DNA from: Syntrophobacterales bacterium
GTDB taxonomy: Bacteria; Desulfobacterota; Desulfobaccia; Desulfobaccales; 0-14-0-80-60-11
Length of the DNA stretch: 64,000 nucleotides
Direction: 5' to 3'
NCBI GenBank assembly: GCA_023512475.1
Contig: JAILZL010000011.1
Location: 1 to 64,000, forward strand
Shown: positions 4,495-45,804 of the stretch, piece by piece
Position numbering within the stretch: the first letter of the stretch is position 1
Layout: every line of letters starts with the position of its first letter
Notes under the pieces: generated by a model
Told to the model about the DNA's origin: nothing
Database searches by the model: none
The model's input: only the letters and a program-made list of their open reading frames with translations
Translations under genes and position numbers: made by a program

Positions 4495-4847
4495 CATTTC
4501 AACCAATTTTTCCCCATTTTTGGCGGCTAGCAGAGGGTTTGGTGGAAAAAATCGGCGCGGAGCGCCGCAGGAGTGGGAAGGAGACCGGCCGGGGCGCCCC
4601 CGGGGGCCTCAACCGGGGCCAAAGGAAAATCTAACGCACTTTTGACCTGTTAGACGCAAAAAATCCATCCGGGTGGCAGAGCAGGGGGGCCGGCCGGGGC
4701 AGAAAAAGACGCAAGTGGGAGATGGCTGCGCCGGAAACCGCCATCCTGGACCGGAGTCCCAGGAAGGCGCGAAAAGGGCGGGAGACGCCGCCTGGGCTTC
4801 CCCCGCCCCTGCACCCGCCCGCCACCGGCGGGCTGCCATCACACCCC

Positions 4848-5063
4848 TCAGGTGCCCCCGAAGCCGATGCTCACCTGCCCGCCCTCCACCAGCACCGGCA
4901 CCTTGCGCACCCCTTTGCTCAGGCGCAGCATTTCGTCCAGATACCTGGGCTCTTCCTTGACATCCCGATAGTCGACCTGGTAGCCTTCCTGGGTCTTGGC
5001 CTCCCGGGCCCGCACGGTAAAGGGTCAGCTGGCCTTGCCGTAAATGATGATCTCCTTGCCCAT
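4848..5063 (-). CDS. Glutaredoxin-like Uxx-star-type selenoprotein (in-frame TGA at 5025..5027 read as Sec)
   Basis: Minus-strand reading with TGA=U: MGKEIIIYGKASUPFTVRAREAKTQEGYQVDYRDVKEEPRYLDEMLRLSKGVRKVPVLVEGGQVSIGFGGT*. Thioredoxin-fold pattern (beta strand, UPFT at the CPYC position, cis-Pro KVPVLV). ATG lies 1 nt after the stop of the upstream gene. Absent from the ORF track because of the TGA. Confidence 0.85.
4998..5010 (-). promoter_or_regulatory. Candidate bacterial SECIS hairpin of the Uxx-star gene
   Basis: 15-27 nt downstream of the TGA: GGCC-CGGGA-GGCC, with a G-rich apical loop; stem is short. Confidence 0.4.
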
Positions 5064-5064
5064 G

Positions 5065-6270
5065 TCATCCTCCGCTGCCGCCCACATAGTAGGTCCTCAG
5101 GTAGAGGAAATCCACCAGATTGAGGATCAGGAGCGGCTCTTCGCTGATGGTGTATTGCACCCCCTCAAACCGGGGGCTCACTTTGGCCTTGATGTGGTTC
5201 ATGACGGTCTCCGGGGCCTTGGGGTCCCGGGGTACCACCTGGCGCACAAACTCCTGGAGGAGGGGGGCATAGCGCAAGGCCAGGCTCTGGCACTCCTTGC
5301 GCAGCTCCACCCGGATGGGCTTGAGGGCGTCGTCGAAGAAGTCGCCGATATCCTCGAAATTCTGCCGGATCTTGGCAAAGCTCCAGGTGCGCATCTCCCG
5401 GTACTTGGCCGCCTGGACACTTTTGAGCCCGTTGAAGGACAGATCCAGCAGGGTGATGTTCGGGGTGCCCGCAGCATTCCCCGGCAGGTGCACCACGTTC
5501 ACCTCCACCTCCGGGTAGGAGGCGTGCGTGAGGGTGAAGGCCCGGCTGGCCCGCACCCCGGGGCGGTCATAGTCATTGGCGGTGCTCACCCGCCAGCCGC
5601 TGCGCTCCAGGTATTGCCACACCGCCTGCCCCTGGGGCGCCAGACGCCGCAGCTCGGCAAAATCCCCCCGGAGGCTTTCCCGAAAGGAAGGCGCCGGGGT
5701 GGGCTGCCATTCCCGTCCGGGCTCCTCTTCCAATTCCTCCGGCTCCCCGGGGAGCGGCGCCATCTGGGCCCGGTGCGGCGTCGGGGGCGGCGGCACCGAA
5801 GGGGCGGTGCGGGCTGACGGGGCGGCGGTGGCCCGGCCCTCGGCTCTCAGCCCCACCACGAAGAGGGCCATGGCGCCGCTGCCGGGCCGGGACTGGCGCC
5901 ACCAGGTATAGGGCCGCCCCGGCACCAGCTCCAGGGTGATGGTGACCCCGGTGCCCCCGGCCCCCACCCGGGTGAGGGCCCGGGAGACCAGCACCTCATC
6001 CCCGGCCAGGGTGGCCGGCAGGCGCCCCGCCCGCACCTGGGGGAATTCCACCACCAGCTGGGGGGAGCCCTCCCGGTCCACGGGGGTGATCCGGGGAGCC
6101 GCCGGGCGGCTGAGGACCACGGTGAGGAGGGTCTGCCCCCCCACCCGGCTGAGCCCCACCTGGCGCACCTCCGGGATCTGCCGGGCCGGCGCCGCCAGCC
6201 CCGGGGCAGATGAGCTCACCAGCAGCCCCAGGGTCACCGCCATCAGCCCCAGAACCTTACGCCACCTCAT
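5065..6270 (-). CDS. AMIN-domain-like exported protein with uncharacterised C-terminal domain
   Basis: Signal peptide MRWRKVLGLMAVTLGLLVSSSAPGLAA; AMIN-like beta region (VGGQTLLTVVLSRPAAPRITPV...PQLVVEFPQV); Pro-rich linker; C-terminal domain KYREMRTWSFAKIRQNFEDIGDFFDDAL. Confidence 0.65.
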   Translation of the reverse strand: MRWRKVLGLMAVTLGLLVSSSAPGLAAPARQIPEVRQVGLSRVGGQTLLTVVLSRPAAPRITPVDREGSPQLVVEFPQVRAGRLPATLAGDEVLVSRALTRVGAGGTGVTITLELVPGRPYTWWRQSRPGSGAMALFVVGLRAEGRATAAPSARTAPSVPPPPTPHRAQMAPLPGEPEELEEEPGREWQPTPAPSFRESLRGDFAELRRLAPQGQAVWQYLERSGWRVSTANDYDRPGVRASRAFTLTHASYPEVEVNVVHLPGNAAGTPNITLLDLSFNGLKSVQAAKYREMRTWSFAKIRQNFEDIGDFFDDALKPIRVELRKECQSLALRYAPLLQEFVRQVVPRDPKAPETVMNHIKAKVSPRFEGVQYTISEEPLLILNLVDFLYLRTYYVGGSGG

Positions 6271-6644
6271 CCGCCACCTCCCGACACCCGGGTAAAGATG
6301 ATGCAGTGCTCCACCGGGCAGCTGGGGTGCCAGGTGCCGCTCATATCCAGGTTGAGGCGGCGGCCGCCCTCGCTGGGGGTGGCGATGATGATGCCGCCTT
6401 CCCGGGTATAGAGCCAGATCTGCCCTTTTTCCACCTTCCACTTGAACCTCAGGGAGGTGTGCTGCAGGGTCCAGGTGCCGTCCCCGTTCTCCTTCAGCAC
6501 CAATTCCACATGCCCCTGGCCGCCGTAGGGCAGCTCGGAGCGATAGGTGCCCACATAGGGAGCCCGGGACTCCCCGCAGCCCAGCCACGCCAGCGAGACC
6601 AGGACCCAGACCAGGGGCGTCCAGGGGTGTCTGCGCGCCGTCAT
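6267..6644 (-). CDS. Small lipoprotein (NlpE-like fold possible)
   Basis: Lipobox LAWLGCGES; YVGTYRSELPYGGQGHVELVLKENGDGTWTLQ; overlaps neighbours by ATGA. Confidence 0.65.
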   Translation of the reverse strand: MTARRHPWTPLVWVLVSLAWLGCGESRAPYVGTYRSELPYGGQGHVELVLKENGDGTWTLQHTSLRFKWKVEKGQIWLYTREGGIIIATPSEGGRRLNLDMSGTWHPSCPVEHCIIFTRVSGGGG

Positions 6645-8080
6645 ATCTCTCTTTCCCGCCAGATGAAGCCGCCCCGGTCCAGGACCAGGAAGCGGTCATA
6701 CAGGTAAATCTGCCCGGCCATAAGGAGCATGCCGGCATTTTTGGTCACTTTCCACCAGTTGACCGGCTCCCCCACCTCCCCCACGCAGCCGCAGTTGATG
6801 GGGAGGCCGGTGAGGAGAGCGTTCACCAGGCCGATAATAAAGATGAGGTTCATACCGCCGATGAGGGTGGCCGCCGCCCGGGTGCGGATGCCCAGGATGA
6901 GGAAGAGGCCGCACACCAGCTCCGCCCAGGGCAAAAACAGGGCCCAAAGGTTGACCCCCCAGGGCGGCATGAGGCCGTATTCCACCACATTGAGGGCAAA
7001 GACTCCCGGGCGCATGATCTTGCTGAGGGCAAACTGGATGAAGATCACCCCCAACACCAGGCGCCCGGCCATGGCCAGATGGGGGCTGCGCCGCACCGGC
7101 GGGATCAGGAGCAGGGCCAAAAAGCCCACCGGCAGCCATTCAATGAGCCCCGGGATCCCCAGGGGCATGGCCGGTGGCGGCGCCGCGGCCTTCTCCTCTA
7201 CCGGGAAGAGCTTCTCCCAGGCGGCGTGGTGGCCTGCCAGCACAAAAACCTGGCCGTGATCCTTTTCCTGGAGCAGGTGGGCCAGCTCGTGGTCGAAGCG
7301 GCGACTGAAATTGCCCCCGTAGACAATGAGGGGGCGGTTCTGCCAGCCCATCTGCTCCAGAATGAAGCGGAACATGGGGTATTGCAGATCAAAGTACAGC
7401 CGGGGCAGGTTTATGGCCCCCCGGATGTGGCGCTGTTCGTAAAAATTGGCCTTGCGGGCGTCCACAAAGACCGCGGCCTGCCGCCGGTGCAGCTCCAGGG
7501 CCCGGGTGGGGCTGATCTCCGCCACGGTGAGCTTTTCCCCCCAGCCGTGCACCAGGGGGATCTGGTTGTCGTTGTAAAGGTTAAAGACCAGAGCCAGGAC
7601 CAGGCTTAAGCCCACCATGAGGAGATAGTCAAACCAGGAGATCTGCCGGAGCTTGGCCTGATGCACCACCTCCCGCTCCAGGCGGCCGTCCCCCTGCACC
7701 AGCCAGTGGCTGAGCTGCTGGATGATATGCCGGGCCAGCTTGGGGTTGTGGTCCAGGACGTGGTCGAATTCCTCCTTGGTGATCTCCAGGAGGAGGGCAT
7801 CCTCCCGGGCCGCCACCGAGGCGGTGCGGGGCTGGCCGGTGACCAGGGCCACCTCCCCGAAGTAATCCCCGGGGCCCAGCTCCGTGAGGCGGGTGCGGAT
7901 GCCGTCGGTGGTCTCCCGGAAAACCTCCAGGCGGCCGCTGAGGACCACATAGAAGCATCGGGGCGGGTCACCCTGCCTGACCACCAAGGACCCCGCGGGA
8001 ATGCGGACCTCACGGCCGACATTCTCCAGCTTGAGCCCGTCGGCCCAGGTCAAGGGCCGGGAATCCATGGCCTCCGTCAT
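6641..8080 (-). CDS. Fusion protein: cyclic nucleotide-binding domain + TM + rhodanese-like domain + MauE/DoxX membrane domain
   Basis: N-terminal CRP-like cNMP fold (GDPPRCFYVVLSGRLEVF...GPGDYFGEVALVTGQPRTASV); rhodanese-like (AVFVDARKANFYEQRHIRGAINLP); MauE-like 4-TM region with INCGCVGE. Confidence 0.85.
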   Translation of the reverse strand: MTEAMDSRPLTWADGLKLENVGREVRIPAGSLVVRQGDPPRCFYVVLSGRLEVFRETTDGIRTRLTELGPGDYFGEVALVTGQPRTASVAAREDALLLEITKEEFDHVLDHNPKLARHIIQQLSHWLVQGDGRLEREVVHQAKLRQISWFDYLLMVGLSLVLALVFNLYNDNQIPLVHGWGEKLTVAEISPTRALELHRRQAAVFVDARKANFYEQRHIRGAINLPRLYFDLQYPMFRFILEQMGWQNRPLIVYGGNFSRRFDHELAHLLQEKDHGQVFVLAGHHAAWEKLFPVEEKAAAPPPAMPLGIPGLIEWLPVGFLALLLIPPVRRSPHLAMAGRLVLGVIFIQFALSKIMRPGVFALNVVEYGLMPPWGVNLWALFLPWAELVCGLFLILGIRTRAAATLIGGMNLIFIIGLVNALLTGLPINCGCVGEVGEPVNWWKVTKNAGMLLMAGQIYLYDRFLVLDRGGFIWREREI

Positions 8081-27294: not shown

Positions 27295-27323
27295 TTGACA
27301 GGGGGCTTACCTCCAGATATTGT
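27295..27323 (+). promoter_or_regulatory. Sigma70-like promoter driving the cobalamin riboswitch transcript
   Basis: TTGACA-17 nt-TATTGT. Confidence 0.6.
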
Positions 27324-27331
27324 GGTGTCAC

Positions 27332-27541
27332 ATCGTTCGGGTGCCCAGATAGGGCATAATAGGGAAGCCGGTGCAAATCCGGCACGGTCCCGCCGCTGTA
27401 ACCGGGGACGATCCCTGCACAATGCCACTGTCCCTGCAGGGGATGGGAAGGCGCAGGGGGAGGAGGATCCGGAAGTCAGAAGACCTGCCCGAACCCCGGC
27501 CGGCGTCGCTACGCGGTATAGCCGACGCCCGGCACGACATT
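27332..27541 (+). promoter_or_regulatory. Cobalamin riboswitch aptamer
   Basis: ATAATAGGGAAGCCGGTGCAAATCCGGCACGGTCCCGCCGCTGTAACCGGGGACGA ... GGAAGTCAGAAGACCTGCC: the conserved B12-box cores. Confidence 0.95.
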
Positions 27542-44751: not shown

Positions 44752-45804
44752 TTACGGCCGGAGGATGATTCTGCCGGGGCCGGTGCCGCTCACCTCCCCG
44801 ATGCGGGCCGCCTGGGGGAAGCCCTCCCGCCGCAGGGCCCCCAGGAGGGCGTCGGCCGCCTCCGGGGCCGCGGCCAGGAGGAGCCCGCCGTTGGTCTGGG
44901 CGTCAGCCAGAAGATCCAGGAGCACCGGATCCACCCCCGGGTCCACCGTGAGGCTCCGGGCGCAGAAATTGCGATTGGCGAAGCTCCCGGCGGGCACCAG
45001 CCCCATGGCGGCGTAGTCATAAGCCCGGGGCAACAGGGGCACCTGCCGGGCGGCCAGGGTGAGTTCCACCCCGCTGGCCACCGCCAGCTCCAGGGCGTGG
45101 CCCAGAAGCCCGAACCCGGTGATGTCGGTGAGGCCGTGCACCGCGCCCGGGGCCAGGCACTCTTCGGGGAGGCGGTTCAAGGCGGTCATCACCGCCACCG
45201 CCGCGGCCTCGGCCTCCGGGTCGGCCAGGCGGCCTTTCATGGCCGTGGCGATGACGCCGGTGCCCACCGGCTTGGTGAGCAAAAGCACATCCCCGGGGCG
45301 GGCCCCGGCGTTGGTGAGGACCCGGTCAGGATGCACCACTCCCGTCACCGCCAGCCCGTATTTGAGCTCGGTGTCCTCCACGCTGTGGCCGCCCACCAGG
45401 AGCGCCCCGGCCTCGTGGATCTTGTCCAACCCCCCGGCCAGGATGTCTTTGAGCACCTCCTTGGGCACCGTGGCGCTGGGGTAGCAGACGATGTTCAGCG
45501 CCGTCAGCGGCCGCCCGCCCATGGCAAAGACATCGCTGATGGCGTTGGCCGCGGCGATCTGCCCGAAGGTGTAGGGGTCGTTCACCACCGGGGTGAAGAA
45601 GTCCACCGTCTGGATGAGGGCGATCTCCGGCGTCAGGCGGAAGACGCCCGCATCATCCGCGGTTTCCAGCCCCACGAGGAGATCCGGGTGCGCCCGGCGG
45701 GGGAGCGTGGCCAGGATTTCCTCCAGCAACCCGGGAGGAAGCTTGGCGGCTCACCCCGCGGCCCGGACCTGCTCCATCAGCGGCTTGTACGATTGTTCAG
45801 CCAT
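44752..45804 (-). CDS. selD: Selenide, water dikinase (SelD) as a selenoprotein; in-frame TGA at 45751..45753 read as Sec
   Basis: Reading through TGA: [97 protein letters not shown]...; Sec aligns with the catalytic Cys/Sec of SelD. The ORF track starts only at 45729, after the catalytic residue. Confidence 0.95.
45718..45740 (-). promoter_or_regulatory. Bacterial SECIS element of selD
   Basis: 11-33 nt downstream of the TGA: TTCCTCC-CGGGTTGCT-GGAGGAA; perfect 7-bp stem with GGGTT-containing apical loop. Confidence 0.8.

Follow-up and report, generated by a model that had tools for sequence, protein, structure and literature searches.

Could a short frame interrupted by TGA codons encode a selenoprotein, and where would such a protein end? 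This question is raised by a locus on the minus strand of a 64,000-nucleotide stretch of DNA from a Syntrophobacterales bacterium (hereafter the window). A preliminary description, made from the sequence alone, had read a frame from ATG 5063 with one in-frame TGA as an unannotated Uxx-star glutaredoxin-like selenoprotein of 71 residues. In our translation this frame is reproduced exactly, with TGA as codon 13 and again as codon 72, where the description let the protein end. Past codon 72 the frame continues with Gly-Val before a further TGA, and the C-terminus reads ...GFGGT-U-GV. From the comparisons given below, codon 72 is most likely a second selenocysteine (Sec) codon rather than a stop; because it was missed, the described protein lacks three residues and has an incorrect end coordinate. 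Very probably, the locus is a functional UXX-star family 1 gene of 74 codons, in which U13 and U72 are both decoded as Sec by SelA/SelB/SelC/SelD, each with its own SECIS hairpin, and whose product is a putative two-selenol redox carrier or soft-metal/metalloid ligand pair. The coordinates are listed in Table 1.

Table 1. Positions in the window of the selenoprotein gene, its signals and selD.
Feature	Position	Strand	Remarks
UXX-star family 1 selenoprotein gene	4839..5063	-	74 aa, Sec at 13 and 72 (predicted); stop TGA 4841-4839
GGAGG, likely ribosome-binding site	5069..5073	-	5 bases before ATG 5063; from sequence
First Sec codon, U13	5025..5027	-	First Cys position of the glutaredoxin site, U-P-F-T
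Second Sec codon, U72 (most likely)	4848..4850	-	Stop in the preliminary description; TGA in all distinct homologs sharing the C-terminus
SECIS 1 apical hairpin, GGCC-CGGGA-GGCC	4998..5010	-	Loop 18 nt past the UGA, within the coding sequence
SECIS 2 apical hairpin, GCCCGC-CGGUG-GCGGGC	4817..4833	-	Loop about 20 nt past the UGA, 3' of the stop codon
selD (selenophosphate synthetase)	44752..45804	-	Own in-frame UGA 45753-45751

The frame has the surroundings of a gene. The stop of the upstream gene (5067-5065) adjoins the GGAGG, with one base left between that stop and the ATG, and a GGAGG-like purine-rich stretch is found upstream in most homologs. The pN/pS ratio over codons 14-71 is 0.13-0.29 among same-genus orthologs; judged by this ratio, these codons are under purifying selection, as for a translated gene.

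With C substituted for U, the protein matched the NCBIfam model NF041114 (UXX-star selenoprotein family 1) at 104.4 bits (cut-off 72), which bears out the Uxx-star identity first proposed. The alignment covers model positions 1-68 of 70 for the 72-residue reading, and 1-70 in the genome search. The broader Uxx-star subfamily model NF041212 was also passed (81.1 bits, cut-off 66), and the Pfam family Glutaredoxin (PF00462) was matched at 41.4 bits. Uxx-star families 2 and 3 (NF041211 and NF047338) and the HUGP/GUXX-star fusion (NF045501) scored under their cut-offs; the locus shares fold and Uxx site with these four models, of which NF041212 is the only one whose cut-off it passes. As NF041114 requires, the UxxT site begins with Sec (U13-P-F-T), and the second UGA falls within the GG[ST]-U-[G/K/R]-V motif of the homologs, which gives the locus the two predicted Sec residues of that family. 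With a match to the whole model, a UPFT site and two Sec, no material difference from family 1 is seen. The classical glutaredoxins (PF00462; Grx3, GrxA, NrdH) share the glutaredoxin fold by sequence and predicted structure, but here Sec replaces the first Cys and Thr the second. The protein does not qualify as a dithiol glutaredoxin, since its UPFT site holds no CxxC and all glutaredoxin equivalogs remained under cut-off, Grx3, GrxA and NrdH far under (Grx3, 33.3 bits vs. 90).

How new, then, is this gene? A 2026 review enters NF041114 in its Table 1 as Distant Grx-like protein 1 (UXX-star selenoprotein family 1), with UxxT and 2 Sec, and gives no position for the second Sec (PMC13188914); an earlier review has the same family as UxxT, 'distant Grx-like protein 1' (PMC9312934). 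Because the 2026 review already gives the family two Sec residues, the locus adds a member to a known family with two selenocysteines and is no new kind. The gene is real and lies outside what a standard-code ORF finder reports, but to call it 'unannotated' overstates its novelty, since a curated equivalog model and the review entry already cover the family. What is gained is a well-supported member with its end corrected, together with comparative data in which the second Sec is better conserved than the first and has its SECIS 3' of the stop codon. With these data it can be tested clearly which selenocysteine is the working residue and whether the pair functions jointly.

Matches to NF041114 above its cut-off came from 27 of 59 relatives and, across the phylum, from 100 of 395 genomes, mostly with two TGA codons inside. 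Such a spread, together with the 104.4 bits, argues that the frame is not due to chance. Among 72 loci read in frame, a few of which are the same record fetched twice, 59 have Sec at both sites and seven have Cys at the first site with TGA at the second; the remaining loci are a single one whose first site is TAA and a few that are truncated or more distant. TGA or Cys thus fills the column of codon 13, in agreement with the earlier placement of this TGA at the first glutaredoxin Cys position. At the second site, all 65 distinct homologs with a matching C-terminus have TGA, as counted by a search pattern that admits only Sec or Cys in this column. No member has TAA or TAG there in the unfiltered homolog translations. 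The residues that follow are also conserved, Gly/Lys/Arg/Ala and then Val/Ile, before a stop of mixed type (TGA 36, TAA 22, TAG 7). Cys was not seen at the second site in any homolog, and the usual Cys/Sec test is therefore unusable there. By these alignments, the C-terminal Sec is more widely conserved than the N-terminal Sec, which is Cys in some homologs; the second Sec persists, and is never Cys in the sample, whether the first site holds Cys or the protein has an insertion ahead of the second.

The locus with TAA at the first Sec site is a Nitrospirae homolog (L077, 5149-5151), in which the second TGA and its hairpin are intact; mutation, assembly error and loss of the first site are possible readings. 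A divergent branch (L114, L124, L126, L128, L129 and L131) has the site CPFC, UPFC or UPYC and, ahead of the C-terminal TGA, an inserted stretch similar to AGD.SLRGGIPLFGGT. All of the divergent members with the long insertion keep the GGT-TGA ending.

For bacterial SECIS elements, the published rule is a loop of 3-9 nt starting 16-37 nt after the UGA, with a G in its first two positions (PMC13188914). The hairpins after both UGAs agree with this rule in loop size, loop G and distance. SECIS 1 takes the form AGGCC-AGGUC-GGCCU in many relatives. Over 54 distinct sequences, it shows 22 compensatory cells (both sides changed) against 5.8 in shuffles (0/500), with 82.2% of cells paired vs. at most 49% when slid. 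The figures for SECIS 2, over 64 distinct sequences, are 68 against 21.2 (0/500) and 89.7% vs. at most 46%. Relatedness among the sequences is lost in the shuffles and kept in the slid controls. A hairpin test at -5 kcal/mol was passed at the first site by 68% of sequences and by 9% of shuffled ones, and at the second site by 87% and 18%, respectively. The published energy rule is at most -7.5 kcal/mol; stretches of 43-44 nt fold at -8.9 (first) and -17.4 kcal/mol (second), and the short upper stem of SECIS 1 by itself at -5.3. In the G+C-rich sequence of the window, single-sequence folds of the hairpin regions are no stabler than shuffled ones (z -0.65 and +1.46), and consequently the support for the SECIS elements is comparative, coming from covariation. 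Across the aligned homologs, a hairpin with a loop G after each UGA is kept by compensatory changes.

Sec decoding had been considered likely for this organism, and a search for selA, selB and selC had been proposed. The host genome (2.78 Mb, 99.99% complete, 73 contigs) contains all three: selA at 620 bits (cut-off 267.9), selB at 361.5 bits (cut-off 242.25) and tRNA-Sec (selC) at 73.8 bits (gathering score 47). The fourth gene, selD, which the preliminary description had already read as using Sec, lies within the window (364.5 bits, cut-off 125) and has one in-frame TGA, in the motif ...RAAG-U-AAKLPPG. SelA, SelB, tRNA-Sec and SelD, the set expected with a bacterial selenoprotein gene, are thus all present. 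With these genes found, and with TGA or Cys at the codon 13 column of the homologs, the locus withstood the refuting conditions that the preliminary description had named. It can also be observed that this selD is itself a selenoprotein gene.

Could the frame nevertheless be a pseudogene or a chance open frame, with no read-through and translation ending at codon 13? A standard-code ORF finder indeed sees no gene at the locus, but the purifying selection on codons 14-71, the Cys homologs at the codon 13 column, the complete Sec machinery and the covariation in the hairpin after the first UGA make this exceedingly unlikely. More has to be weighed for a single-Sec protein of 71 aa, in which codon 13 is Sec and codon 72 a normal stop. 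This was the translation first given, and a stop at codon 72 still leaves a near-complete glutaredoxin fold. However, every distinct homolog with this C-terminus has TGA at codon 72, never TAA or TAG, while the stops after it are mixed; members with Cys at the first site retain the second TGA; the NF041114 model runs on through codon 72; and a covarying SECIS-like hairpin lies past it at the correct distance. We consider an end at codon 72 very improbable.

Given its place 3' of the stop codon, the second hairpin might instead be a transcription terminator or another 3' element and no SECIS. Its distance to the UGA of codon 72 and its loop G fit the published bacterial SECIS rules, however, and in the window it is not followed by a run of T. 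The hairpin (4833-4817) was absent from the terminator scan, which gave a site at 4567-4553 instead, on the same strand as the selenoprotein gene; as a terminator the hairpin was rejected, and a 3' element other than a SECIS has little probability.

With two Sec codons as the preferred reading, the mechanism would be as follows. Both in-frame UGAs would be decoded as Sec by SelA/SelB/SelC/SelD, each directed by its own hairpin, the second of them lying after the stop codon. U13 would stand in for the catalytic Cys of the glutaredoxin active site. U72, the third-last residue, would come after the last strand and close to the loop by which ordinary glutaredoxins hold glutathione, which probably brings the two selenols face to face. 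As a pair they could act as a redox carrier, forming a selenenylsulfide or diselenide, or could bind a soft metal or metalloid as paired ligands. Both the actual insertion of Sec and the closeness of U13 to U72 are what we infer here.

The AlphaFold model (14 sequences) has a mean pLDDT of 94.3, and its best PDB matches are glutaredoxins, including GSSG- and GSH-bound ones. Sequence and model together show a predicted glutaredoxin fold. Glutaredoxins carry a last helix where the present chain ends with Sec-Gly-Val. In the secondary-structure string of the model, short bridges occur at residues 54-55, just before Pro56, and at 72-73, and these suggest a place for U72 alongside the loop that adjoins the active site. 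From this position, the paired selenols could plausibly form a redox or metal site, and redox or soft-metal handling is the putative function. The 2026 review raises the possibility that Sec acts as a metal ligand in the UXX-star family (PMC13188914). A further idea, which we hold only tentatively and regard as somewhat doubtful, is that the family cannot do without its C-terminal Sec, whose SECIS lies 3' of the stop codon, and that the protein forms a paired-selenium site (e.g., for binding a soft metal or metalloid) and is not an ordinary glutaredoxin.

Among the loci listed, the gene order glycosyltransferase, cNMP-rhodanese-MauE protein, lipoprotein-like protein, exported protein, selenoprotein gene, small protein and EF-P is conserved within the same taxonomic family. 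Outside it the order is not kept among these loci, and distant members adjoin other genes; the context therefore gives no function. The second gene of this order, at 6641-8080 (-) in the window, encodes cyclic-nucleotide-binding, rhodanese and MauE/DoxX membrane domains in one protein, whose rhodanese loop is without Cys at the usual place (VYGGNFSRR), and its closeness to the selenoprotein gene is conserved within the taxonomic family. In addition, a Cobalamin riboswitch at 27322-27506 (+), with 129.3 bits, is the sole Rfam family found in the window.
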